Below are positions 3,023 through 48,785 of a stretch of DNA of 64,000 nucleotides, one piece after another (within the stretch, counting starts at the first letter, position 1; each line of letters starts with the position of its first letter). The notes beneath the pieces are model-generated. The model was not told where the DNA came from, did no database searches, and saw only the letters and a list, made by a program, of their open reading frames with translations. Position numbers and translations under genes: made by a program. Source of the DNA: Cliona cf. orientalis (lineage: Eukaryota > Porifera > Demospongiae > Clionaida > Clionaidae); NCBI GenBank assembly GCA_963930775.1, contig OZ005702.1:5642001-5706000 (forward strand). The letters are read 5' to 3'.

Positions 3023-4122
3023 CATAAGTAATAGTAGTATTATACATGTACATGTATGTGTAGTATGTGGTGGATATCACTGTGTACATGACCTTGCACT
3101 TGTCTCCATTTGAGATCAATCTTCCAAATCAGTCGCCACATAATAATATCAGTATCCGGACACAACTGCAAGGAAAATTCAAGCAAAGAATGCATCCCTC
3201 CAATTTTCACCTTTTTACCTATATATAGCTCCGGCATCTTTTTTTGTGTACAACACTAAATCGCTTCTTAAATATGTTTTCGAGGAGGTCAGTAGATGCA
3301 GAGCTCGTATCTCGCTGGATGTTACAGTAGTTAATGTGTTTATTATCTTGCTCGCTCAGATAGCAGAACCTTAAGTTTGAGGTTATTAATAAACACAAGG
3401 TTCTCCCCAAGGCGTAGCGGATGGGCAAAAATTATTGATCACAACTATCATTGTCTTATTCAAGAAAGATGGAGGCATGGGGGACATGCCTATATGGAGA
3501 ACACCGAAACAGTAGGCCACAAATTGTCTCTATGGCCTGGGCCATTTGGGGGGGGGGGGGGGGGGCTGCCCTGTCCGTAGCTAGGTATCGCTTTACTGTG
3601 GATCTCACAGAGTGGAAGGGGGGGGGGAGAGCTTGGTATATTATGTAATTCATGTAGAGGATGAAATGGGAGGGTGTAATACAACATTAGAGTTAGTTAG
3701 CTCTATAAACATGGTATAATCCATGATTTGCTTACCATCAGGCCAGACCAAATTGATTTTCTGTTTCTCAGATTAAATAGTGATCCAGCAGATGGATATA
3801 AAATTATTTCCAATCTTTGACCTCGTACGTCAGTCTTGTTGCTCTCTTTAGCTCACTGAAGCTGTACACATGCCACGTTTCTTAAGTATAAACTTAGAGT
3901 GTAGAGTGTGTATATGTTTGGCAATATAGCTTCCATAATGTTGTATCACATTTTTTAGACATACACACTTCCTTTGTGGCCATATATACATACATACAAT
4001 TGTAAGCGCCACAAGTGCAGTCCATAATTACCCTCCTCCTAAGAGATGCGAGGCTAAATGGGATACCAGTCATCATGGACTATTATGTATTTCCTTTTCA
4101 AATCGGAATATTTTGGTTGTAG
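3023..4122 (+). repeat. Upstream flank/intron of NLR cassette 1 (segmental duplication arm)
   Basis: From about 3023 the sequence aligns with 28755-30297, the DNA before the second NLR exon: the same TACATGTACATGTATGTG start, the same ATATGTTTTCGAGGAGGTCA region, the same G-run and CTGTCCGTAGCTAGGTAT-type block. Cassette 2 has an extra insertion of about 550 bp (29560-30105). The segment ends in a polypyrimidine tract and the acceptor TTTTGGTTGTAG, so it is probably the 3' part of an intron. It contains a homopolymer G run near 3548-3566. Confidence 0.7.
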
Positions 4123-7100
4123 GTCAACTGGACCAAGTTAATGACAGAGGCAGTCATGAATCAATGGATATAGCCAGCATAATTGAAAATCTAGAGAATC
4201 AGTTTTGTAGTCTCCGCACTAGGATTATACGTGAACTATCTGATAAACCTGACATGACCGTCCAAACATTGTTAGATATATTAACAGGTCTACCACTGTC
4301 ACTGAGAAAAGAATATGAATCATCCATAGCAAAATGTATTCCTGATATGCGAAAAGAGACACAAGTAAATGAATTATTTATTGTTTACCTCAATCCTCTC
4401 ACGTCATTTATAGACTATGAATTGATTGAATATGTTATAAAGAAGTTCGGCAGTGATGCCTTAAAGCGAGATATGCAGTCCTATTGTAGTGAGTTGATAT
4501 TATTCATGAGGAAGACAACAATTAAACAGTTAATAAACCATTTACCTGGTCAAACTGAAATTCCACCGAAGTTTTCCCTGATAGAAGCCAAAATTGACCA
4601 GAATGCTAGTGAATGCACTTTAGAAGAACTTAATGTAATCAGAAAGAGATACTGCGGTGAGGTAAAACTATCAGAGATTGTCTTTCATCTGGTGGCAGTT
4701 GTAGAGTCCAACTCCTTCATTGTTAGGTGGCTAGTACCATTAGCACTTATTTCTGACATAATGAAATCGGCTAGAAATCTTGACCAAAGCTTCTACCAGG
4801 AGTGTAGAATCACCTCCCTTACCCTGGATGGAATGTGGCTGTTTCTAAGTGAGGTTGAGATTGATGGAATGTGGTCACAGGTTCATATCAGTGACACAAA
4901 AGTTAAGGATCGATTCCATGCCATGTATAAACAAACTATGTACGAGTTAGAAATGGAAGAGATATCAGTGCAAAGGTTATCATTGTCTCTGGCAGACTAC
5001 TGTCCAAGACTTGGAAGTTATACAAATGTTCTTTTACCTATAAGTGAGGCATTTCTGAATGACCATTTCCCATTGTCATTTATTGACTTTAAAATTCTTG
5101 CTATTATTATAGAAAGGTTTGGTAGTGATTGTTTGAAAAAGGTATTGAATTCTTATTGTAATTATATATCAATCTATGTGAAGAAATTAACTGCAGAGCA
5201 GCTTATAACTTTGTCACCTGAACCTTCAGATTATTTTGTAGCAGCTAAATGCAGAATGATGGGAGAGTTATCAGATTATGGATTAGAAAAGCTGTTCAGT
5301 TTTCAGACTAGATTCTGCACCATTCTTAACTTCAACAAAGTATGTTTCGTTATGGGTGAAATAACCAAAGAAGAGAGTTGTTCATTCACTGTTAGCTGGC
5401 TTGTACCATCCGGCCTAGTGTCTGACCTAATAAAATTAGCTGGTTATAGTCTAAGAAAAGAAATCGAATTCTTTCAAGAATTTAACATAACCTCACTACA
5501 TCTTAGTAAGAAATTGCTATATAGTCATCAACTAACACAATTTGGTATTGAGCTAAAGGAGCGGTATCAACAGTCCCAGGGCTTACTATCTCCAATTCCT
5601 TTACCAACAAAAAAAGTATTCCGACTAACTATGGTCAAGGGAGAGATAGTGCAGCAAGACCATATAAAAGACAGATCAGTACAAATGAGCATCATTAGTA
5701 GGTTAGATGATATTCTATATACCAAATGTTCAGTGGAACTTCAGCACATATTCAAAAATGGACTAGATGGAGGCGAGATCATTTTGATTGAAGGAGCCCC
5801 AGGGTCTGGCAAGAGTACTCTAACAGTCCACATCTGTCAGAGATGGGGCAAAGGAGAGTTATTTCAACAATTCACTGTTGTGATACTTGTCCAGTTACGA
5901 GACCCAGCAGTGCAAAGAGCACAGACCATAGCTGACCTGCTTCCTGTTGAAAATGCTGAGGAGATAGCTACTGAACTAATAGCTACTAATGGACGTGGTG
6001 TCCTGTGGGTCCTTGATGGATGGGATGAGCTCCCACCTCACCTACAGCAAGATTCGATATTCTGCGAAATTTTGCCACCAAAGCCTAGTGAGGAGAAGCT
6101 AGCAGAAATAAAAAAAGATCCTTGGCGTTGTAAATATGTAGGAGAAGAGCACAGCAAAGAATCACTTTCAATAACTCAGTATTATAAGGATAGGTTGCTC
6201 AATGAGGCATCGATCATAGTCACTTCCCATCCAATTTCATCAGATGACCTACACCCTGTGGTCTCTTCACGAATTGAGGTGTTGGGGTTCACCCCAGAGG
6301 AGCAGAGGCAATACTTCACTGAGTGTTTCAAGGGAGACACCAAAGCTTTAGAAGCCGTACTTGAGAAGATCCAAGAGAACCCTGTGGTACAAAGCATCTG
6401 CTACCTTCCACTCAATGCTGCTTTAATAGTACACACTTTCAAATACAGGGATCAATCACTACCCAATACTGAGTATGAGATCTACTTATCAGTCATTCTC
6501 AGCTGCATTCAACGCCATTATGACAGGGAGGGCAGAGGTCATGACCTACCTAGAGAGCTAGCATCTTTAGATGATCTTTCCAGGAGTGAAGCAGTGAGAG
6601 AGCCTTTTCAGTGTCTCTGTGAGCTTGCCTATCGTGGTGTGATGGAGAACAAAGTGACCTTCTCTTCCAGTGACTTGCCTCAAGGATCCAACACACTCAG
6701 TCTTCTTCAAGCAGTAGAGAGCTTTCTCCAAAGTAGAAAGTCAGTGTTCTATAACTTTATTCACCTGTCAGTCCAAGAGGTCTTGTCAGCCTACTACATA
6801 GCCACTAAGTTGTCAGATAGTGAGCAGGTGTCTCAATTCCAGCAGTTGTTCAGCCAGTCTCGTTTTGCTGCTGTGTTTCAGTTTTATGCTGCCATCACCA
6901 AGTTGAAGAGTCCAGGGATACGCCAAGTTATTGATAGAATAGTAGAAGCCAAGTCCAAGCCTCTCTTAGTGTCTCTTCTTTGCTGCTTACACGAGGCTCA
7001 GGATCCTGCCCTCTGCCTTTATGTAGCTGAAAGACTAGAGTATAAACTAAATCTTGGAAATACCTCACTCAGTCTACTGTACTGTCTCTCTGTTAGTTTT

Positions 7101-10100
7101 TTCCTCTCCTGTCTTAATGGTAATGAAACCAGTGTTCACCTTGACCACTGCACTATTGGTGATCTTGGTGTAAAGTACTTATCAAAGTATCTGCATGTAG
7201 GTAGTAATTTGAATTGTATCAATAAAGCAACTATTGACCTTGCTAAAAATGAAATTTGTGAAGAGGGTGCTATACATATTGTTAGGATATGTTACTTTAT
7301 TGAACATCTATACTTGTCATATAATCCAATTGGAGACACTGGAGCATCCTTGGTATCTGAAGCTGTAAGAGAAACTACTACACTCAAGACTTTATTCCTG
7401 AACATTTGTAGCATCACTTCAAGAGGGGCTGAAGATCTTTCAAGAGCACTAGCTCAAAATAGTTCCCTGGAGAAGTTGGATATCAGTGAGAATAATCTAG
7501 GAGATGAGGGAATAAGCCACGTGGCTGAGGCCCTCAAACAAAACAACCAACTAAAGGAACTCTGGATTGGTGATTGTGAAATGACAGACGAAGGAGCAAC
7601 TTCTCTGGCCAGTGCTCTCACTGTCAACAACTCTCTTAAAATGTTGCACATGGGTGGAGCTAAAGGAGCACTAACAGAAGATGGGCTCTCAACAATAGCT
7701 CAATCATTAGCTAGCAAATCATTGTTCGTGAAATTAGCAATCCCTACTCTCTTTGGCTCTACTATTGCTGATCGTTTAAGTCAGGAGATCAATGAAGCAA
7801 GGAAGAGAAACGGACTCCCACCCATTGAAATTCAAACTGCAGCCAGAATTACAGATATGTTCACTACTATCAGTGACAATAAATTTGATGCCATTGAAAA
7901 TGAAGGTGATTTGGGGTGGGCTTTGGTCCCGGAAATCCTGAACAATCAGTTTTTGGAATTTAATGCTCAATTAGATGATCAACCACCTTTAAGTATCTCA
8001 TCACTCAATGAAACTAAGCGACTACTCTTTCAATCGTGTAAAGACGGATGTACAGGCACAGTTCAACACCTGCTGACTCAGCACTCCGATCTCAGAGACC
8101 AGATAAATTTACTAACAGACGATGATGGAAACACTGCTTTGATCATCGTGAGCAAAACTAGACACACAGGTATCGTTAAGTTACTATTAGAATGTGGTGC
8201 TAATGTTGATCATAGAAATTCACACGGGTGGACAGCATTAATGAAAGCAAGTGAAAACGGAGACTCTAAATTAGAGATTATTGAACTATTACTAAGCTAT
8301 GGAGCTCAAGTAGACCTACAGAATGGTGATGGTCAATCTGCTTTGATGGTGGCAGCTCAAAACAGCCAAGCTAAGGTTGCTACTAAACTAGTACAAGAAT
8401 ATGGAGCTAGTGTGGGTCTAAAGCAAAAGCACTCTAGCTGGACTGCTTTGATGAAGGCTAGTGAAAGTGGGAGTATCGATATTGTTAAACTCCTTGTGGA
8501 GCATGGTGCTGATGATTTGGAGTGGGCTTTAGTATTAGCAATCCTCCACAAACATAATGATATTATTGAATTGCTTTTGAAACATGGTGCTCAAGTGGAT
8601 GACACGAACTGGTCTCTCTTTCTTGATCAACCACCTTTGGTACTGGCGATTGAGACAGGGGATGCTGACATGGTTAAAATGCTATTGGATCATGATGCTA
8701 CACAAGGAATAGATCAGGCAATAATAAGTGCAATCTTTAATAAGAACACTGAAATTATCAAAATACTGTCCGAACGTGATGCTCAAGTGGATGAAGTGGA
8801 CTGGTCTCCCTTGGTAGAAGCAGTTGAGAAAGGAGATGCTGATATAGTTGAACTGCTATTAGAGCATGGTGCTAAACAAGGAATAGATTGGGCCATGACA
8901 AATGCAATCCTTAGTAAGAATGCTGATATTATCAAAATACTCTCAGAACGTGGTGCTCAAGTGGATGAGATGGATTGGTCTGATCAGCCTCCCTTGGTAG
9001 AAGCAGTTGAGAGAGGGGATGCTAATATAGTTAAATTACTGTTAGAGCATGGTGCTGAACAAGAAATAGATTGGGCCATGACAGATGCAGTTATGAGTGA
9101 GCAGACTGAAATTATCCAAATGCTATCAGAACATGGTGCCCAAGTTGTGGATGATGTGTATAAAGATGGGGTAGGTGAGGAGCCTAATTTGGTCACTGCA
9201 TGTAAAAATGGAGACACTAATGTTGTTAAACTGCTACTGGAGCATGGAGCTAAGGAATCTGAGTATTGTGGGTGGGCATTAACAGAAGCAATTTTGCATA
9301 AACACACAGAAGTTGTAGATCTGTTGTTAGAGCATGGTGTTTGTGTTGCGGATGATGGGGATCGCCTTGAGTTGGACCACGACCCTGCTATAGTGGAAGC
9401 AAGTGAAAAAGGTGACATTGATAGTCTTAAATTACTTTTGAAGTATGGAGAGAAAGAAGAGTATCAAGGCTACTTGGGATGGGCATTATGTGTGGCTGCC
9501 ACGCTTGAAATTGTTAGCTGGCTTTTAGAAAATGGTGCTGAAGCAGATGAGATAAATTCCATACTAGATGAAATTCCTTTGGTAGAAGTTAGTAGCGAAG
9601 GAAACATTGAAGCTGTTAAACTGATGCTAAACCATGGAGCTAAGGAGTACATGCCAGAGGCTCTAGTTAGAGCTATTGAAAACAAACGCACTGATATGAT
9701 AAAACTATTAACACAGCATGGTGCTCATGTGGATGATGAGAGTTGGTTTGATTTTGATGCAATGCCAGTTTTGGTAGAAGCAAGTATGAAGAGTGACATA
9801 GAAACTGTAAAATTGCTTTTAAATCATGGAGCAGAAAAGTACCTAGACTGGGCATTGGAAGCAGCAAGCAAGGGAGGACATACTGAAATCGTTAAGTTGC
9901 TATTTGATTATGGAGTTGAAGTGGATAACTGTGATATGTTTGATACAGCTGCTTTAGTAGAAGCAAGTAGAAATGGGAAAACTGATACTGTGAGATTCCT
10001 TTTGGAGCAATTAGGAATAATGAATCGTTTAGGGCTGGCTTTGAGGGCAGCGAGTGGGGAAGGCCATCTTGATATTGTGCACTTGCTATCCGAGTATGGA

Positions 10101-13100
10101 AATGCAGAAGACTTGGGATATGCTTTATTCGAAGCAAGTCGGAGTGGTCATACAGAGGTCATAAAATTTCTCATTGAATGTGATGTTTTTGTAGATTTTC
10201 AAGATGAAGAGCAAACTACAGCACTAATAATTGCAGGTGGGAATGGACATACTGACTCTGCTGAGCTTCTAATTGAATGTGGTGCTGAAGTAAATTTACA
10301 AAATACTCATGGAACATCTGCTTTGATGGCAGCAAGTCAAGCCAATCACACTGATGTGGTGAAATTGCTGCTCAAATATGGTGCCAGTGTTAATCTTGAA
10401 GACGAAAATGGCCAAACTGCAGCCAAAATTACAAATAATGATGATATGATTGCGTTGTTTGCTGCTGTTAGTGATGATAAATTTGATGCTATGAAAACTG
10501 AAGTTGATTTACACGAGGAGGTGAAACTCACACATGAAGAAGAAGCACATCTAATTGCTATTGAAAATGCTATCACAGAAACAGGTATGCTGGATCATAC
10601 CCTTGTTCACGGTGTATTTGTTGGACCACCAAGATCTGGTAAAGATTCTCTAATGGAGCGTCTTTTAGGGCAAGCTGCCTCTAAATTTTCACCCAGCACT
10701 GAAACTATGATTCAAGAGTCTTGCACCTATGCAGCCACTATTGGGCAATCAAACTGGACTAGACTGGATTATGATGAAGAAGCTCTTAATTTTATGAAAA
10801 TAGCATCAGAAGATAGCTCAAGTTGTTCACTGACAATTGAAGGAGAGGTCCTGGAGTCTTTTGATACTCCAATAGCAGATTCATCTTCAGCTATGAAGGA
10901 TAGCACATCTGATGCTTTTGACAATGCGAAAAAGAGGACTATGCATATGCACACAGGCAGTACTTCAGAATTCCAATTAGAAATTGATCCTCAGCCTGCT
11001 ATAGCCTTTCAGGATGAAACTTCTTTAAAATTTCAGATTGACAAAATTGAGCATATACATCGGTTGAAAGGCAAGCATAAGACTCCAATTGAGATTTTTA
11101 AGGAAGCCATTATGAAGAAAGGCTTGAAAGGTCTTAGAAAGCCATTCACAAACTCATGGTCACTTTACCTCACTAATACTGGAGGACAAATGGAATTTCA
11201 AGAGCTCTTGCCTCTATTAGTGTCTGGTCCATCAATGTTCTTTATCACATTTCAACTGCATAGAGATCTCAATGAATGTTTCCAAGTTGAATATGAACTT
11301 CCCAGTGGAGAATCATCAAAGTGCTATGAGTCCAGCCTCAGTATACTAGATTCAATCCTTCAGACTCTTTCAACAATTGCAGCAATGGGCACATTCATTT
11401 ACAAAGGATTGCAAAAGAAGTGTGTTCCTCTGAAACCAAAAGTGTTTCTGATCGGGACCCACAAGGACCTACTCGACAAGAAATCTGCGGCTACTATTAT
11501 CGACAGAATTGATGCTCAACTACAAACAGTTATAAAGTCAACTTCACACTATCGTGAAGGAATTATTCAATTTGCTTCAAAGTCTCGCATGATATTTACC
11601 GTAAATAACCTCGATCCCAGTGATTCTGATTTTCAAACTATCCGATCTGCCGTTGAAAAAACAGTAGAAAGAGGAGACTATAAAATGAGATCCCCCGCCC
11701 ACTGGATGATTTATAGCCTTGTGGTGCGGCAGCTTCAAAACCGAGTTGAATCATATGATGAGTGTTTTGCAATCGCTAAGGAGTGTGTAATAAAAGATAA
11801 TTAATGAGGCACTTCATTTCATTCACACAAAAATGGGACTTGTCCGATATTTTCCTCATGAAGAATTGAAAGATATTGTCATAGTGGATCCTCAAATTCT
11901 ATTTGAAAAAATGACGGAACTCATTGTTGAAACATTCACATTTGAAAATTTTCCTAGTGATCGTTTCAAGCTAGAAACTTTCAAACACAAGGGAATTTTT
12001 AATTTGAGTGACTTCACCAGAATCAGCAGCCGAACCGGTCAGAAATTGACACCAACTCTTTTTGCTAAATTATTGGAATATCTTCAAATAGCTGTTCGAT
12101 TTCAACAAGGTGGAGAGACTAAATATTTTTTGCCTTGTGTGCTTACCCATGCTCAAGTAAACAAGAATGTTTCTAGCTCAGCAATACCACAGTTGATAGC
12201 TATATTTCAGTGTGGTTACTGCCCCAAAGGCCTTTTTGGCACCTTAATCACCTTCCTGATCAACAATGAAATGCAATCGGACTTCGAATGGGAACTTGAT
12301 ACAGAGAATATCTATAGAGATGAAGTATGTTTTCGTGTTGGTCCTTATGATACTGTCACTATCAGATTCATGCCAACACACCTGCAAATATCATGTGCTG
12401 AATCCAACCCTGATTTACAACGAAAAGATTGTACACAAGAAGATATATGTCAAGAGGTACGTGAATCGGTGGAGAAAGGGATCAAGACAGTCACCTCTGC
12501 CATAAATTATATTAACGCTCAACATTCATTCACTTTCTACTGCACATCTGATGTTTGCAGTGAAGACCCTCATCCATCTAAGCTGAAAAAGCTCAAGGGA
12601 AAATTGTGTAGTCTCATATGTGATAAATTGAAAAAGTGCTTCCCCTTACCTTCAGGATATGAAAAATGGCGATTGTGCTCGACCGAGGTATACCATAGTC
12701 TGAAAGAAAGGTTTGATAAATCCTTTCTAATCCAGCAGTTGAGTGATTGTGCAGCCAAATGGAGAAAAATTGGTACTCACTTGAAATTTCAGCAGAAAGA
12801 ATTAGACATTATCCAAGCCAATCCATTACTTCTGAATGGTGCTCCAAGAAGTTGGTTGTCTGTGATGTTATCAGATTGGATGGAGTGGGCTCCAGGAGAC
12901 AGCCGTGGGAGCACAAGCTATGCCAATCTTGAAGATCTAAAGTCTGCTGTATCCAAAGCTGGATTTGGTATCATTGCAGCTGAGCTATCACTGCCACAAG
13001 AAGTAGCAGCAGGAGAGAGTGGTCAATCCACTGACACTGGAAGAAAGAGAAAGTCTTTATCAGCAGCAGAAAGGTCATCAAAGAGACCTCGACTGTCTTA

Positions 13101-13101
13101 A
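4123..13101 (+). CDS. NLR1: NACHT-LRR-ankyrin-Roc-COR-Death protein, single-base frameshift
   Basis: This giant exon has about 2,990 codons. It begins at the splice acceptor TTGGTTGTAG, with no internal ATG start, so a 5' exon is missing. Residues are numbered from 4113. Two tandem helical repeats come first (about 10-230 and 270-460, each with a FIDxxxL...FGSD core). Then NACHT: Walker A GAPGSGKST near 561 and Walker B LWVLDGWDEL near 630. LRRs lie at about 1000-1235 and about 24 ankyrin repeats at about 1265-2100. The Roc GTPase follows: P-loop GPPRSGKDSL near 2170, NTGGQMEF near 2355, THKD near 2448. A COR-like region (YFPHEELKDIVIVDPQ) and a C-terminal Death domain (12700-12990) close the protein. 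NACHT should drive oligomerisation, Roc-COR a GTPase switch and Death adaptor recruitment; all three roles are inferred from families. One extra T at about 11802 breaks the frame inside the Roc-COR linker, so the gene is disabled or misread here. Lacking 5' exons, its expression is unknown. Confidence 0.85.
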
Positions 13102-28754: not shown

Positions 28755-30297
28755 TATAATAGTATTATTACGTACATGTACATGTATGTGTAGCATGTGG
28801 TTGATATCACTATGTACATGACATTGCACTTGTCTCCGTTTGAGATCAATATTCCAGATCAGTTGCCACATGTCAATATCAGACAACAACTGCAAGGAAA
28901 ATTCAAGCAAAGAATGACATCCCTCCTTCAATTTTTGCTTTTTTGCCTATAATATTATAGCCCTAGCATCTTATTTTGTATGTATAACACTAAATTGCTT
29001 CTTAGTATGTTTTCGAGGAGGTCAGTAGATGTAGAGCTCGTATCTTGATGGATACTGTAGTTTGTTGTGCTGATTATCTTGCTAGCTCAGATAGCAGAAC
29101 CTTAATTTTGAGGTAATTGTTATTGTTAGTAAACACATGTTTCTCCCCAAGATGGGCTAGAATTTATGATCACGTTAATTGTATTGGAGAAAGGTGGATA
29201 TTGAAAGCATGGGGGACATGCCTAGGGAGATTACCGAAACTGTAGGTCATGCACAAATTGTCACTATGGCCGGGGGGGGGGCTGCCCTATCCTGTAGCTA
29301 GGTATGGCCTTCGCAGCCTTCTACTATGGATCTCACAGAGTGGGAGGGAGCTTAGTATAGTATAATATTATTGTATGTAGAGGATGAAGCTATAATCCAT
29401 GATTTGCTTGCCATCAAATTGATTTCTATTTCTTGGTGTAAATAGTCACGATAGTGATCCAGCAGACTAATATATACATTTCCAACCTTTGACCTCGTAT
29501 GTATGCTGCTCTCTTCAGGTTACCAAAGCTGTACCCATGCATGCCACGTTCCTTAAGTATGCCCCTGTCAATATACTAAGATTACAGTTGTCTGTACATG
29601 CGTGCGTACGAGTGGGAGGTGACCGGAAGTGATTCGACCCCAAACTAAAAAGTTTTCTTTCTCAGCGTCACTGGACTTGGGGCGATACAACAGACAGTCC
29701 ACTGACACAGTTGGCTATGGCCCAGCAGCCACTAAAGTGAGCAGCTTCAAAAAAAAGCAGGGCAGAATTAGACTGAACTGTACACTTGCTAATGGCGGCC
29801 TGGAGAATGCGAAAGGGTGACATTCTAAGTCGATGTTGCCCATAGGTGCTTTCCAGAGGGAGGCGATTCTCTTCTAAGTGTCTTCTCTTGGGACCCCTTG
29901 CGAGCGAAGGTGCAAGACAAGTATTAAATTTTTCAGCTAGCTGATTGACAGTCACATGATTAAGCAGGATGTGCACGTGCGGTAGCTTGATCTCTATGCA
30001 TGTGCAAAAATCTATAGGTAAAGGTCGTCGACCACACATGCACAATAATAGCACGGGGATAAAGGGGTGAGCGAGCAAAGTGAGCTCATTCCTTGTGATT
30101 ATGATTGGTGGTATAGCTTCCATAACGCCTTATCACATATTTGAAACATGTACACTTCCTTTGTGGTCATGTACATACATACCAATTGTAAGTCTCGCAA
30201 GTATAATCAGCAATTACCCTCTTGCTAAGAGATACCAAGCTAAACAGGATGCAGCTCAATACCAATTTTGATGGAGTATTATGTACTTTGGTTGTAG
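28755..30297 (+). repeat. Upstream flank/intron of NLR cassette 2 (duplication arm)
   Basis: Aligns with 3023-4122. An insertion of roughly 550 bp (29560-30105) separates the CCTTAAGTAT block from the ATAGCTTCCATAA block; it holds small open frames on both strands without recognisable domain and no clear TIRs. The arm ends at the acceptor ACTTTGGTTGTAG of the NLR2 exon. Confidence 0.7.
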
Positions 30298-33200
30298 GTC
30301 AACTGGACCAAGTTGATGACAGCGGCAGGCATGAATCAGTGGACATAGCCAGCAAAATTGAAATTTTAGAAGATCAGTTTGATAATCTCCAAACTAGAAT
30401 TATAAATGAACTTTCTACTAAATCTGGTATAACTGTGCATAACCTATTAAATCAATTAACTCGATTACCACTGTCGTTGAGGAGAGAATATGAATCGTCC
30501 ATAACAAAACGTATACCTAGTATGCGAACTGAGACACAAGTGAATGAATTATTTATTCACCTCAATCCTCTCACGTCGTTTATAGACTATGGATTGATTG
30601 AATATGTTATAAAGAAGTTCGGCAGTGATGCCTTACAGCGAGATATGCGGTTCTATTGTAGTGAAATGGTAGTATTCATGAAGGAGACAACAATTAAACA
30701 ATTAAAGGATCATTTCCCTGGTCAAACTGAAATCCCACCAAAGTTTTCTCTAATAGAGGCCAAAATCGGTGACGATGCTAGCAAGTGTACTTTAGAGCAA
30801 CTTAACAGACTTAGAAAGAGATACTGTAGTGAAGTAAAGCTATCAGACATTGTATTTCATCTGGTGGCAGTTGTAGAATCCAACTCCTTCATTGTTAGGT
30901 GGCTAGTACCATCAGCCATTGTTTCTGACATAATGAAATGTACCAGAAATGTTGACCAACGCTTCTATTAAGAGTACAAAATTACCTGCCTTACCCTGGA
31001 TGGATGGTGGCCGCATATGAGTGAGGCTGAACTTGAAGTAATGTGGATACACAAGAACAGTGCAAAACTTGTTGATCAGTTTCAAATTATACATAAGCAA
31101 ATTGTACATGAATTACATGAATTGCAGTTTCAAAATACACCAATAGATGAGCTATCACAGTGTTTGATAAACCAACAGCCAAATCTTCAGAAAGACGCAA
31201 GTAACTTTTTGAGCCTAGTAATCTTAACTTTTCCTGGCTCTGGATTCTTTCTAGACTTTGATATGCTTAGTATTATCGTAAATGAATTTGGTAGTGATTG
31301 CTTAAGAGACGTGATGATGTCATATTGTAAATTCATGTCAGGCTTTATTGAGCAGTTGTCAGTACAACAGCTACTTGACTTGCCACCTGTTCCTTCTAAA
31401 CGACATGAAGGCTTTATTAAAGCAGAGTGTAGAATCATGGAGGAGCCTTCAGGATATACCTGTGATAAGATTCTACGCATCGAAAATTCCATCTGTGCAG
31501 AGATGGACGTTAGTGGATTTATGCTTACCATGAGCCATGTCAGAAAACCACTGAGTGATTCATTTTTTGTTAGGTGGCTTACTCCTGCTCATTTTGCCCC
31601 AGATCTGATAGAGTCTCTCAATCATGTATTAAATAGTGAATTTTTTGTAAGAAAGAGCATAGCATCACTCTCTATTGGCAACCAATGGGTATACAATCAA
31701 AAATTGTGTCCATTCAGTTTCAAACTCAAGAGGAAATATGGTAACCAGTGGTCCCAGGGCTCACCATCTCCAGTTGAATGGATTCCTTCACCAACAAAGA
31801 AAATATTCCGACTAGCTATGATCCAGAGAGAGAGAGTACAACGAGATCATATTGAAGATAGATTCGTGCAAATGACCATCAGTGGTAGGGTAGATGACAT
31901 TCTTCATGCTAAATCTCCAGTGGAACTTAAATACATCTTCAGAAACACACTACATGGAGGTGAGATCATTTTGATTGAAGGAGCCCCAGGGTCTGGCAAG
32001 AGCACTCTAACAGTCCATATCTGTCAGAGATGGGGCAAAGGAGAGTTATTTCAACAATTCACTGTTGTGATCCTTGTCCAGTTACGCGACCCAGCAGTGC
32101 AAAGAGCACAGACCATAGCTGACCTGCTTCCTGTTGAAAATGCTGAGGAGATAGCTGCTGAACTAATAGCTACTAATGGATGTGGTCTCCTGTGGGTCCT
32201 TGACGGGTGGGATGAGCTCCCACCTCACCTACAGCAAGACTCATTATTCTGTAAACTTTTATCTTCGAAAGTTAGTGAGCAAAAATTAGGAGATATTCGA
32301 GAAGACCCCTTATATGCTGAGTATGTAGAAAAGAATTATAGTGACGAGAAGCTTTGGAAAGTGTATGTGGAAAATAATCCCCAGCATGACCGATTGCTTA
32401 CAGAATGTTCAGTGATAGTCACCTCTCGTCCAATTTCATCAGGTGACCTACACCCAGTGGTCTCCTCACGAATTGAGGTATTGGGGTTCACCCCAGAGGA
32501 GCAGAGGCAGTACTTCACTGAGTGTCTCAAGGGAGACACCAAAGCTTTAGAAGCCCTACTTGAAAAGATCCAAGAGAACCCTGTGATACAAAGTATCTGC
32601 TACCTTCCACTCAATGCTGCTTTCATAGTACACACTTTCAAATACAGGGATCAATCACTACCCAACACTGAGTATGAGATCTACTTATCAGTCATTCTCA
32701 GCTGCATTCAACGCCACTATGACAGGGAGGGCAGAGATCATGTCCTACCTAGAGAGCTAGCATCTTTTGATGATCTTACCAGGAGTGAAGCAGTGAGAGA
32801 GCCTTTTCAGTGTCTCTGTGAGCTTGCCTATCGTGGTGTGATGGAGAACAAAGTGACCTTCTCTTCCAGTGACTTGCCTCAAGGATCCAACACACTCAGT
32901 CTTCTTCAAGCAATAGAGAGCTTTCTCCAAAGTGGAAAGTCAGTGTTCTATAACTTTCTTCACCTCTCAGTCCAAGAGGTCTTATCAGCCTATTACATAA
33001 CCTCAAAGTTGTCAGATAGTGAGCAGGTGTCTCAATTCCAGCAGTTGTTCAACCAGCCTCGTTTTGCTGCTGTATTTCAGTTTTATGCTGCCATCACCAA
33101 GTTGAAGAGTCCAGGGATACACCAAGTTGTTGATAGAATAGTAGAAGCCAAGTCCAAGCCTCTCTTAGTGTCTCTTCTTCGCTGCTTACATGAGGTTCAG

Positions 33201-34017
33201 GATCCTGCCCTCTGCCTTTATGTCGCTGAGAGACTAGAGAATAAGCTAGATCTTAGTGAGACCTCACTCAGTCCACTGGACTGTCTCTCTGTTAGTTTTT
33301 TCCTCTCCTCTCTTACTGGTAATGAAACCAGTGTTGTCCTTTGCCGCTGTGCTATTGGTGACCTCGGTGCCAAGTACTTATCAAAATATCAACACACATA
33401 TAGCAAAACAACCATTGACCTCGCTCATAATAAGATTCATGAAGAGGGTGCTTTACATTTTGCTAGGATCCTTTACTTTATTGAGCATTTATACTTGTCT
33501 TCTAATCCAATCGGAGATACTGGAGCATCCTTGATATCTAAAGCTGTAAGAGAAACCACTACTCTCAAGACTTTGTTTCTGCACAAGTGTAGCATTACTT
33601 CAATAGGGGCTGAAGATCTTTCAAGAGCACTAGCTCAAAATAGTTCCCTGGAAAAGTTCAACATTAGACGGAACACTCTAGGAGATGTGGGAATAAACCA
33701 CGTGGCCGAGGCACTCAAGCAAAACGAACAACTGAAGGAACTCTGGATTGGTGGTTGTGGAATGACAGACAAAGGAGCAGCTTCTCTGGCCAGTGCTCTC
33801 ACTGTCAACAACTCTCTCAAGATGTTGCATATTGGTGGCATTAAGGGAGCACTAACAGAAGGTGGACTCTCAACAATAGCTCATTCATTAGCTAACAAAT
33901 CAAAGTTTGTGAAACTGGCAATCCCTGCTATCGTTGGCACTATTATTACTTATCGTTTAAGTTGGGAGGTTAATGAAGCAAGGAAGAGAAATGGACTCCC
34001 ACCTATTGAAATTAAAG
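30298..34017 (+). pseudogene. NLR2: NACHT-LRR paralogue with an in-frame stop
   Basis: One exon of about 1,240 codons from the acceptor TTGGTTGTAG to the donor ATTAAAGGTGAGT. The order is as in NLR1: two N-terminal helical repeats, NACHT (GAPGSGKST, LWVLDGWDEL, IVTSRPISSGDLHP), a helical region ending in FLHLSVQEVLSAYY, then RI/NLR-type LRRs to LPPIEIK. No ankyrin, Roc or Death follows in the exon; the donor implies another exon that I did not find. At 30969-30971 TAA replaces the CAG found in NLR1 (FYQEC versus FY-stop-EY) with the frame intact on both sides. This single stop truncates the protein inside the first repeat unless it is an error. Nucleotide identity to NLR1 is very high over NACHT and lower before it. 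The death-fold exon at 21671 lies upstream but does not match in phase directly. Confidence 0.8.
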
Positions 34018-35680
34018 GTGAGTGTACTGTATGTTGTGTGGATGTATTATACCAATTTGCAGTGTTCTATATTATGTACATTATTATATGAATTACCGTA
34101 TTTCGCAAAAATTATGTTATTAAAAAAATTTCATTTTTCGCCGAAGTGATAGAAATGTTTTATGCAAATTTAATAGTTTACCTGTACTAACTTATGCAGC
34201 AAATATATGGCTTGTGCTTGAAGTTGACAGAAAATATTTGACTCCTAGCAGCTTCTCAGTTCTTTTTCAGATTCCCTTTTCCGCCTGTGTATAATATTAC
34301 AGTATTAACATCTTACTAATTGTTACATGAATATTTCTAACAAAATTTTTGCGAATAAAGTTAACATAAATTACGATATGTAAGAAAGGCACTAATGATT
34401 CACACTGTAGATGGTTCTTATGTAACTTTATTCATGCAGCTACTGGAATTATTTCAAGTTAAGTTCCATCCAAGTACTGATCCTTACAGTCCCCCCGCCC
34501 CTCGCTTTCTGATGTCACATGACCAGCTAAGACACAACACTACAACTGATCAACACGAGTCAAAAATTCATGTAAGTGCTACTAGACCTCAACAACAACT
34601 ATCCCACTCAATCCTAAGTGACCCCTTACCTTCACAGTCTCTTCCCGCTTTCAGTGCAATGCATCTGTTCTTGTTCGCTGCAAATGCACACAGTTAGCTA
34701 CTCTTTGATGTTGACTAGAGCCCACAGTTTCAGTCCGGGCAGTGAGTTGGACTCCAGCTACTGAACATGTCAGCAGTGACAATTAGTTGGTCCTTGTGCA
34801 CTGACTCTGTGATATTTGTCTTATTCAGTTTTGTTAGTTGTGTGGTTCCATTCTCAGTCCGGCCGGGCTATCACACTCCAGTCGTCATGGTTTGTGCTGA
34901 GTCAGCAGGGGGCTGGGCCAGGGTTCAGAGGTCATTAGTGTTGTGTTTGGTTAGTTGTATGTTGGTTGTGGTTTTAGTGTGTTCATGTGATGTCATTCAC
35001 TAGCTTTGTTGTCTTGTTCCATATAGTTTTGTGTATGCACATGTCTGTGGTTTGTCTGGTCATTTTCTATTCCTTTTTGTTGTCCCTTAGCCTACAGTTT
35101 CATTGCTAGTTCACTGACACCACATCTCATCATACACCACATTTTCACTGTACATCTGTTGCATATTTCATTAATAGTTTATCATCATGGTAAGTTTAAT
35201 TTGACGCGTTTAATGTTTTTAGTGTTTTTACACTTGTGTCATAGTATGCCCATTGAGTGTGTACTAACTGTATGCAATTGCAATGTCCTTTTTATAAAGC
35301 TGGCCTTTATTTCTTGATAACTTTCAATCATAAATAATATTAATATCAAACCTTTTTGTTACTTCTCGACATTCAATCATCACAGTATCTTTCTTTTTGA
35401 CATCCACCTTCTGTTGTATTCAGTAATTTTGACTCGGGAAGTTTCATTCCAGTAATTTAGAGGTGGGTACGGGTATAGTATAACAGTCACATGACTTCTC
35501 ACATGACCTCTTGTTTTTGTCTAGTTCAGGAGCTGGACTCAGAAGAGCACAGCAGTTCAAACACATTGAGAGGTCTGAGCTGTGAAACTCCGCCCACAGT
35601 GGATCAACATGTGTTTATATGCTGACTACGTCTGTACATATCGGTATGTGTACATGTGTAGTGTGCTGTCTGTGTGCAAT
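34018..35680. repeat. Downstream flank of NLR cassette 2 (duplication arm)
   Basis: Collinear with about 14251-15985. A segment of about 370 bp (about 34035-34395), with many ATTTTTGCG-type A+T-rich motifs, is present only here. The similarity stops about 75 bp before the first visible V-ATPase exon. Confidence 0.7.
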
Positions 35681-45995: not shown

Positions 45996-48785
45996 ATGGC
46001 TGTATCAGGTAATATGACTGGCAGGAGCAGAAGCCTTGAGGAGCAGTTGTCCATGTTCCCTGCTGAGCTCCTTGATCGTCAGTGTTTTGAGTCTCACCTT
46101 GGCAAACTAGTTCATCACATTACCACTGATGCCATGGTGATGATGGCCACTGATCTAGGGCTGTCGGATGTCGAGGTGGAAGATAGTCTATCTGCCTGGC
46201 CGAGGAACCCAGCAAAACAGAGACTGGACATATTCAAAAAATGGCAAGAGAAAAAATCATCAGAGGCCACTTACAGGTGTGCATCGTGTATACATGTGTG
46301 TATAATAGATACTGTTTGGTGCACATGGGACTACACAAAAATGTTAACGTTATCACAAGAAGAGGTACAATATTCAACTGAACTAGTTACAGTATAATTA
46401 GCTATGGTCAGTTAAAAATAATTTTACAAGGTGCATTATATTATGGGTATCACACAAAATTCTGTTCTAAATTGATTGCATTATATTTTTTGTGTATGCA
46501 GATATTTAATAACTATCTTTCATGAAACAAGGAGAATTGATTTAATAGATAAGCTTCAAAGAATTGTATCTTCACAACAAATTCCAATCCATCAACCTCA
46601 GCTAGCTCAACATGATCTTGACTGGTACGGAAGCTACCTAAAGAAGCAGAACGTGGAAGTCCTCTTCACCCTACAAGTATCTGCCAACCAGTGGCTTCCT
46701 TCACCAACACAAAAAATCTTCAACCTGGCCATCATCAAGAAAGATGAGATTCAAAGGGGAAGAGTTGATAATGCATTTATCCGCAAGACCATCAGGGGAC
46801 AAGTTGATGACATTCTTCTAGAGAAGTCCCCCATAGAACTGAAAGACATCTTCGAGAACGTTGAAGGAGAGAGAAAGGTGATTCTAATAGACGGTGCTCC
46901 AGGTAGCGGGAAGAGCACACTTACTGTACACATCTGTCAGCAATGGGGCAGAGGAGAACTATTTAATGAGTTCACTGTCGTCATACTTGTCCAGTTACAA
47001 GATCCAGAACTTCAACGTGCACAATCATTTGTTGATCTGCTTCCGGCTGAAAATCGTGAAATAGCTGAACAGGCTGCTGCAGAGATTGTGGCTGTCAAAG
47101 GCAGGGGTGTTCTCTGGATACTGGATGGCTGGGATGAGCTGCCACCCCACTTGTTAAAGAAGTCTATTTTCAGTAAACTAATAAATCCAAAGCGCCAGGA
47201 AAACCCACTGTCAAAAACTACAGTGATGGTAACTTCTCGTCCGATTTCATCAGGTGACCTTTATCCTGTGGTCTCCTCGCGAATTGAAATATTAGGGTTC
47301 ACTGCTGAGGAGCAGAGACTATTCTTTACCGAGTGTCTCAATAATGATACAAAAGCTGTGGAGACTCTAATGGAGAGACTTAGCAGTAACCCAGCCATGG
47401 AGGGCAGCTGCTACCTTCCTCTGAATGCTTCCATTGTAGCCCATCTTTACCTAACAAATGGATCCCTCCCTTCCACTATTTATGGCATATTTTCTTCTCT
47501 TGTGCAGCACTGTCTCTCTCGCTATCTTCACGAACGACAGGGGGTATCTCAAACACTAGCCAGTTTTGAATCATTTGATGAACTGCCTGACGAATTGCAC
47601 TCTTCTTTTAAACAGCTCTGTAAACTAGCATTCACTGGTGTTAGGGACAATATGGTAACCTTTTCTAGCAGTGATATAAAAGCTTTAGGATCTTCAGACG
47701 AGATTTGCAAGCTTGGTCTACTACAGGCTGTACCTAATATTGTTTCTCATGGTCAATCAGTTTATCACAACTTCCTACATTTGTCCGTTCAGGAGATGCT
47801 AGCTGCAGTTCATATATCTCGAATTCCAGCCAATGAGCAGATCTCAACATTTGACACCATGTTCAATGATGCTAGCGATCGATTTAGTGCAGTGCTTCAG
47901 TTTTATGCAGCCATCACCAAGCTTCGTACATCAAGGCCTCTCCTCAGCTTAGTACCACATTTCTTGTGTCCTGTCCCTGCAAGTATTTATGATCTTGTTA
48001 GGAAAATTGTTCGAAAAGGCTCTGAGGCTCTTTTAGTATCACTTTTGAACTGCTTGTGTGAGGCTCAGGACACTGACTTATGTAAGTATGTAGGAGAACA
48101 GCTTAGAGACAAGGTTTCATTTTTGGATAAACTACATGGGTTTGAATCTGAGCTTTCTCTTCTTGGTGTGTCACTATTACCCCAAGACTGCCTCTCCATT
48201 GGCTACTTCCTGGCTTCCATTGCTATTAGTTATAAAAGCAGATTCTCAGTTGACCTTAAGTTTTGTTCTCTAAGTGATACTGGCATAAAGATCCTCATGC
48301 AAAGTCTTTGCAGGAGCCTGGATCCTAACAGTGAAATAACTGGTCAACTTGACATGAACATAGGCTGCAATGAGATCACTGGAGTAGGGGCTTCATACAT
48401 AGCTGAGGCATTGAGAACTACTAGAGCATTGAGAAAGCTGAGTCTATCGGCCAATTCAATTGGTGATAAAGGACTACAGTACATTGCAGAGTCCCTATCA
48501 ACCAACACAACACTTACTGAACTACGTTTGGCGTTATGTGGACTAAGAATCACAGAGGAGAATGGTCCAGTACTCACTAAAATGCTACAGAGAAATAAAA
48601 CTTTGAGACTACTTGACCTGACATGGAACGGAACCATACCAGACCATGAAACATCATTTATCATAGAGGGTCTCAAGAAGAATACCACTCTCAAAGTATT
48701 GTATTTAGGCTTTTGTGGTGTCACAAATGAAGGCTTTTGTTTGATTCAGAGTAGTACCTCAACATGCAAGATACATAATAATTAA
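45996..48785 (+). CDS. NLR3: Death-NACHT-LRR receptor, intact
   Basis: Exons 45996-46276 and 46502-48785 join in phase (TTACAG/GTGTGC .. TATGCAG/ATATTT), giving about 854 residues. The start ATG at 45996 leads into a Death domain (residues about 20-125): LGLSDVEVEDSLSAWP and FKKWQEKKSSEATYRYLITI, spanning the intron. NACHT follows: Walker A GAPGSGKST near 225, Walker B LWILDGWDEL near 297, VMVTSRPISSGDLYP, and the winged-helix-type FLHLSVQEMLAA. RI-type LRRs run from about 675 to the end (SLSANSIGDKGLQYIAESL, LRLLDLTWNG). This is the classic metazoan NLR layout with a Death effector, expected to oligomerise on sensing and recruit Death adaptors. The NACHT is clearly related to NLR1/NLR2 but more distant. 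Both exons are open. It shares its promoter region with the kinase-kelch gene. The C-terminus ends shortly after an LRR, so a further exon is possible. Confidence 0.88.

Follow-up and report, generated by a model that had tools for sequence, protein, structure and literature searches.

A sponge gene with NACHT-LRR and ankyrin fronts on a single Roc tail as the probable, later truncated, recombinant of two tandemly amplified receptor classes

This work concerns a receptor-like gene in a 64,000-nucleotide stretch of the genome of the sponge Cliona cf. orientalis (contig OZ005702.1, here C14, positions 5642001-5706000; the whole stretch is called the window). The genome searched comprises 217 Mb in 149 contigs. 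The DNA of this gene successively carries a NACHT domain, leucine-rich repeats (LRRs), a long block of ankyrin (ANK) repeats, a Roc GTPase, a COR segment and a C-terminal Death-like domain. With a probability of roughly 75%, we consider the gene to be a recombinant of two tandemly amplified classes that share their Roc-COR-Death-like tail, one being NACHT-LRR-Roc-COR-Death-like and the other ANK-Roc-COR-Death-like, and to have been truncated later. As assembled, it codes for NACHT-LRR-ANK-Roc only, and it is today most likely a young pseudogene or a gene encoding a tail-less protein. A single frame of 2621 codons (3939-11804, + strand) spans NACHT, LRR, ANK and Roc, and the rest of the tail follows in another frame:

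3939..11804, + strand: open frame, from stop to stop, with N-terminal region, NACHT, LRR, ANK and Roc (open reading frame translation and motifs; first ATG at 4164)
4164..5618, + strand: N-terminal region with two repeated stretches (SFIDYEL.., LSFIDFKI..), seen by eye in the translation
5778..6332, + strand: NACHT NTPase (Pfam NACHT, expectation value (E) 4.9e-19; Walker A GAPGSGKST at 5793, Walker B LWVLDGWDEL at 6003)
7137..7832, + strand: leucine-rich repeats, bounds approximate (Pfam LRR_6, E 4.3e-15)
7833..7912, + strand: linker copy 1, a homologue of the linker between the ankyrin end and Roc, placed as in the NACHT-LRR-Roc paralogs
7992..10412, + strand: ankyrin block (Pfam Ank_2, E 2e-132), about 24 units by length
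10413..10510, + strand: linker copy 2, directly 5′ of Roc
10557..11786, + strand: Roc-like GTPase (P-loop near 10611, NTGGQ at 11175, GTHKD at 11454)
11799..11804, + strand: site of the 8-nucleotide (nt) deletion and the resulting stop (11802-11804), from paralog comparison
11803..13101, + strand: out-of-frame continuation with COR-A (about 11806-12144), the rest of COR and a Death-like domain (about 12736-13000), ending at the same C-terminus as the paralogs

The presence of NACHT, LRRs, ankyrins and Roc within one frame, proposed by a sequence-only reading of this DNA, is borne out by Pfam matches and motifs. A profile built from 31 relatives retrieves structures of NLRP3 at 1.1e-50, and the LRRs lie C-terminal to NACHT, as in NLRs (LRR_6, 4.3e-15). 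The proposed number of about 24 ankyrin repeats agrees with the length of the block, and a crude 33-residue scan counted 22 ankyrin-like units, whereas 50 shuffled versions of the block gave 0.08 on average. The three GTPase motifs of Roc that this reading had announced (P-loop, NTGGQ and THKD) were all located, and they are those of a Roco GTPase. No Pfam model of any kind, and so no effector domain (CARD, Death, PYD or BIR), matches positions 4164-5700 at E up to 10; an N-terminal effector, if there is one, may be a divergent domain or lie in an upstream exon. A newer precomputed label, PF27087.1, is common to the proteins P0001, P0012, P0014 and P0023, without a placement within the protein. 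Within the window frame, no protein kinase was matched at E up to 0.01, and NCBIfam gave mostly ankyrin-driven matches far below cut-off; it gave nothing for COR-Death. A scan of viral contigs found no relative of the gene.

The frame stops at a TAA (11802-11804) at the Roc/COR border, and COR and the C-terminal part are read in a second frame (11794-13101) that overlaps the first one by 11 bases (11794-11804). An intron at this border was considered and rejected because the two frames overlap and the compared relatives read straight through: the passage from Roc to COR is ECGI(K/D)D(E/K)NEF(N/D)EALHF in P0002, P0003, P0012, P0014 and at the locus L023. At the DNA level, the window has 4 nt (11799-11802) at a place occupied by 12 nt in all four paralogs compared (L020, L021, L022 and L023), and the residues missing in the window are present in P0002, P0003, P0012 and P0014. 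This comparison indicates that the window carries an 8-nt deletion relative to its paralogs. The deletion is probably recent since no stop has yet interrupted the 435 codons that follow it, which reach the paralogs' C-terminus. The domain order given by the sequence-only reading was thus correctly read in the DNA, but COR and Death are off-frame after the TAA, and the C-terminal Death domain that it placed on the same chain is not coded in the window frame. The likeness to the tail of DAPK1 is fair as regards the order ANK-Roc-COR-Death, which exists in the DNA but is divided between two frames; in the protein, COR does not directly follow Roc, from which it is separated by the stop and the change of frame. 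P0001, the sole database entry at the window locus within the Roc-region search described below, stops at the same codon. Since it probably comes from the same animal as the window, it provides no independent confirmation.

A protein search with the window Roc region, which is limited to proteins between 0.55 and 1.75 times as long as the query and having exact words in common with it, retrieved 116 database relatives whose domain labels are precomputed (Pfam). They fall into two classes: 87 carry NACHT without ankyrin labels (COR-A in 84 of these) and 28 carry ankyrin without NACHT labels (COR-A in 27). The only one labelled with both (1/116) is the window's own protein. Scans of members chosen from each class found NACHT and COR-A together in 31 of 31 NACHT-type proteins and ankyrins and COR-A together in 11 of 11 ankyrin-type proteins.

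Both classes can be followed along the window gene. Its residues 59-1325 show 65-69% identity with the NACHT-LRR-Roc proteins P0012 and P0014, which do not match the ankyrin block and resume from window residue 2158 onward (Roc, 72-77% identity; COR-Death, 82-83%). The ANK-Roc-COR protein P0003, which is 100% identical to the locus L024 (C14:6225600-6233000), aligns, from its start methionine, with the window from residue 1351 onward, and the DNA homology of L024 to the window begins within 3 nt of the L024 ATG. Furthermore, the window gene contains the linker in duplicate: one copy follows the LRRs (7833-7912) and the other precedes Roc (10413-10510), with an identity between them of 92% across 25 nt and 78% across 55 nt. 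At the end of its LRRs, L023 reads GGTCAAACTGCAGC, like the last-ankyrin/pre-Roc sequence of the ankyrin gene, which is GGCCAAACTGCAGC both in L024 and in the window before Roc. In four free-standing NACHT-LRR paralogs inspected, the sequence that follows the LRRs is GGTGAGT (window 34015-34043, L010 and L011) or GGTTAGT (L013), which we read as putative splice donors. In the trees of the tail, the window gene belongs to a clade of 15 rows, with 11 ANK-type rows (among which L020 and L022 were entered without reading their fronts) and three NACHT-type rows, with supports of 99/99 for Roc and 100/99 for COR; the outgroup (P0023 and P0031) consists of long branches flagged by the tree program. 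The three close NACHT-type tails nest inside ankyrin-type tails in both trees. The place of the window gene inside the clade is weakly resolved, and the Roc and COR trees disagree within it.

These data are consistent with a two-step history followed by a deletion. An LRR front would have been fused to an end-of-ankyrin linker; this NACHT-LRR-linker front would then have been joined to an ankyrin-Roc-COR gene, giving NACHT-LRR-linker-ANK-linker-Roc-COR-Death; later, the 8-nt deletion at the Roc/COR border would have truncated the recombinant.

The constraint on the window branch appears to have changed as well. Changes unique to the window number 39 nonsynonymous and 16 synonymous, compared to 82 and 88 over the other rows (Fisher p 0.005, or 0.002 without L022), in a count that takes changes as independent, uses a simple definition of unique and includes only three or four other loci. 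They divide into 22 nonsynonymous and seven synonymous changes in Roc (379 codons, three other loci) and 17 and nine in COR-Death (430 codons, four other loci). This imbalance suggests that constraint on the window branch is relaxed. Pairwise ratios of nonsynonymous to synonymous divergence (dN/dS) are 0.26-0.47 over NACHT-LRR, Roc and COR-Death, and 0.35 in the N-terminal region at a synonymous divergence (dS) of 0.90. In these comparisons of aligned codons, such values show past constraint, on average.

Several observations weigh against a recombinant that was later truncated, and the simplicity of the Fisher count is one of them. L022 has itself an 11:5 ratio of nonsynonymous to synonymous changes and a broken Roc frame. 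The out-of-frame tail has a pairwise dN/dS of 0.26-0.39, and the ankyrin block one of 0.39-0.52 versus L024, which shows constraint on average. The frames of 2621 and 435 codons are both open, which argues that the gene was coding until recently. The COR tree separates P0012 from the other two NACHT-type rows; this split implies that inter-locus conversion may blur the history. No donor that would date the recombination came to light, the identities across an entire domain not exceeding about 87%; a 50-residue piece of the window Roc is 96% identical to L022. Lastly, the deletion may be a rare allele or a base error.

This last point leads to the alternative of a working NLR with NACHT-LRR-ANK-Roc-COR-Death on one chain, the frameshift being an assembly error or a minor allele. 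Both frames are indeed open to the normal C-terminus, the nucleotide-binding motifs of NACHT and Roc are intact and dN/dS is 0.26-0.52 across all compared parts. However, a loss of 8 nt outside a homopolymer is unusual as a consensus error, no copy of the window gene devoid of the deletion was found (P0001 ends at the same stop, but is probably from the same animal), changes on the window branch appear relaxed, and no other protein among the 116 relatives is labelled both NACHT and ankyrin. We therefore regard this alternative as unlikely. The gene could also encode a truncated yet useful NACHT-LRR-ANK-Roc protein, acting as a decoy or a dominant-negative partner of intact paralogs, as might be proposed from its intact 2621-codon frame and conserved motifs. 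A Roc lacking COR is not expected to dimerise normally in Roco proteins, the deletion looks young, its orphaned 435 codons being still open, and the window-branch changes suggest relaxation, all of which make such a role quite improbable.

A more radical alternative is that two separate genes, or two sequences falsely joined during assembly, meet at the LRR-ANK boundary. It would agree with the free-standing NACHT-LRR paralogs, which terminate at a donor-like site at this boundary, and with the compared ANK-Roc-COR gene, which begins there. However, the donor-like site is missing in the window gene and the frame is open across the junction, so that a split into two genes, which the sequence-only reading had envisaged, was rejected. 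The doubled linker also argues for a biological joint. Moreover, the window differs from L023 and L024 by 13-21% in long aligned DNA pieces, and neither half is near-identical to any compared locus or, among the best candidates, which were the only ones scored, to any other locus of the genome. A collapse of extant copies is thus unlikely, and the lack of contiguity between the two halves, also envisaged by that reading, was not borne out. Altogether, an artificial or two-gene origin of the LRR-ANK join seems extremely improbable, and recombination between the two classes followed by truncation remains our preferred explanation.

STAND ATPases and Roco GTPases are normally alternative switches, and the sequence-only reading placed both on the chain of the window gene. 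This combination is not particular to the window gene: 87 of the 116 carry NACHT without ankyrin, 84 of them with COR-A, and the genome itself holds many such genes. P0038 (1445 residues, labelled LRR, NACHT and COR-A) was used as a query against the genome, and 32 of the 920 candidates were scored. It matched 33 places, of which at least 19 are free of stops and cover it from residue 81 or lower to residue 1424 or higher (as sequence matches only); the others are one gene in two pieces without stop, eight near-full matches with one to three stops and four partial matches. Two intact close NACHT-LRR-Roc-COR paralogs also share the N-terminal region of the window gene, at C14:5361466-5367987 (identical to P0014) and C14:5488638-5495165 (L023). 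The pairing of NACHT with Roc-COR is thus a property of a multi-gene family and not of the window gene alone. COR-Death tails at least 83% identical to that of the window were found in 16 genes, the window gene included (97 of 578 candidates scored). Decay is common in this cluster since at least four of the 15 others are damaged, either by a stop inside the gene, by a split of the frame or by a break in Roc (C14:7781866, 6236730, 7634351/7634850 and 7582387, the last one being L022). As a separate observation, P0023 (2347 residues) combines, in a single frame, NACHT-LRR, a first Roc-COR module, a Death-like segment and a second Roc-COR module.

In intact relatives, sensing by the LRRs or ankyrins would free the NACHT ATPase, where present, for oligomerisation, Roc-COR would contribute a dimer switch under the control of GTP, and signalling to Death-domain partners would go through the Death-like domain at the C-terminus. 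Tentatively, and at somewhat less than even odds, we propose that this animal lineage has a large and expressed class of dual-switch NLRs, whose NACHT ATPase and Roc-COR GTPase control one C-terminal Death-like output and whose sensor fronts (NACHT-LRR or ankyrin) are swapped on a common tail by recombination in tandem clusters. The window gene would be an intermediate caught with both fronts, broken only very recently or, in other haplotypes, not at all. The existence of many genes with both switches on one chain makes the coupling of two nucleotide cycles within a single immune receptor testable on intact relatives. The window gene, for its part, suggests that, within a cluster, genes with a common signalling tail can exchange, double or lose their fronts, and that new receptor architectures can arise in this way. 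Since it is truncated, this gene alone is a weak basis for functional claims, and the wider dual-switch class merits more attention than the window gene itself.

In the window, the tail domains score weakly or under cut-off with the Pfam models. In the window, Pfam Roc is weak (E 0.054, under its cut-off), and it reaches E up to 0.01 in three of the 31 NACHT-type and two of the 11 ankyrin-type relatives; the P-loop, NTGGQ and TH.D are invariant columns over 31 aligned relatives. COR-A of the window has an E of 3e-5 and 24.4 bits, versus a Pfam cut-off of 35.3. Pfam Death is weak in the C-terminal piece of the window (E 0.13) and is not listed for longer pieces, and when 13 C-terminal segments from the family are scanned with an E limit of 10, seven match it (best 5.3e-5). 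In a PDB profile search, the top match of this C-terminal domain is also weak (E 0.12); it is 1wxp (THO complex subunit 1), which we take to be a death-domain structure. On the basis of these matches, this domain is termed Death-like. Two ANK-Roc-COR relatives have a Pfam Death match between ankyrins and Roc (P0028, residues 615-681; P0030, residues 614-680); because of this location, these matches were dropped as support for a C-terminal Death domain. In a sequence search of PDB, the window Roc had no match and the window COR-Death had one chance-level match. For two family profiles, the best 60 of 91 and the best 60 of 609 PDB matches are NLR/LRR and ankyrin proteins and include no Roco or DAPK chains.

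The window carries other receptor genes, among which a second NACHT-LRR paralog:

30300..34043, + strand: second NACHT-LRR paralog (frame region 30207-34091), with one in-frame stop at 30969-30971

A donor-like GTGAGT site marks the end of its LRR exon, and neither P0014 nor P0003 matches a Roc-COR downstream of it within the window. A third NACHT-LRR frame (46476-48785) is 44% identical to P0014. Elsewhere in the cluster, one frame of L009 (C14:5867500-5877400) is open over at least 3299 codons within the piece examined (3702 in the genome listing). Walker A and Walker B motifs occur four times each in this frame, always within a NACHT-LRR-like unit. Two Walker sets are found in each of L010, L014, L016 and L017, which, like L009, may encode poly-NACHT receptors. 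The cluster also includes a BEL/Pao-like retroelement frame (Peptidase_A17, DUF1759; L018:3-5378, minus strand).

Among known systems, DAPK1 has an N-terminal kinase followed by ANK-Roc-COR-Death and has no NACHT-LRR. The window gene differs from it by its NACHT-LRR, by the absence of any kinase match in its frame and by its out-of-frame COR-Death. The same domain order of DAPK1 is given in the available text of PMC12365538. The NLRs of another sponge, Dysidea avara, have COR in common with the window, as far as the legend of their architecture figure shows, which lists COR among the drawn domains (PMC12909245, published in 2026); the main text of this article contains none of the whole words "Roc", "ankyrin" and "GTPase", and in its available part sponge NLRs devoid of an N-terminal effector are termed NLRX. 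In the available text of PMC8195603, the Roc GTPase (AP-GTPase) is treated, like NACHT, as a switch in death and immunity proteins of animals, and a lineage-specific shuffling of domains is described for Amphimedon; no NACHT-Roc-COR protein is named there. Sea-anemone genes combining Roc-COR with TIR or Death (PMC5094078) and Aplysia TIR-Roc-COR proteins (PMC9334734) are described in the accessible parts of two other articles. The accessible parts of PMC7159879 and PMC11797021 hold nothing on the NACHT-LRR-ANK-Roc-COR layout, and no description of it was met in the literature searched, whose coverage was partial and did not extend to figures and supplements. As for the novelty claimed for this layout, ankyrins are indeed found between LRR and Roc only at the window locus among the 116 relatives, but the arrangement looks like a recombination product.

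The closest systems are therefore the two classes of the same family. The NACHT-LRR-Roc-COR genes P0014 and L023 have NACHT, LRR, linker, Roc, COR and the N-terminal region in common with the window gene, and L023 also has the C-terminal Death-like domain found in the window DNA; unlike the window gene, they carry neither an ankyrin block nor a frameshift. The NACHT-Roc-COR proteins of about 1450 residues (P0032-P0042 and P0044-P0116) similarly share NACHT, LRR, linker, Roc and COR with the window and have no ankyrins; the few C-termini inspected end near or inside the presumed Death region. The ANK-Roc-COR genes (P0003, i.e. L024, and relatives) lack any NACHT or LRR label, but they have the ankyrin block, linker, Roc, COR and Death-like C-terminus of the window DNA, P0002 and P0003 being 65-86% identical to the window over the shared parts.

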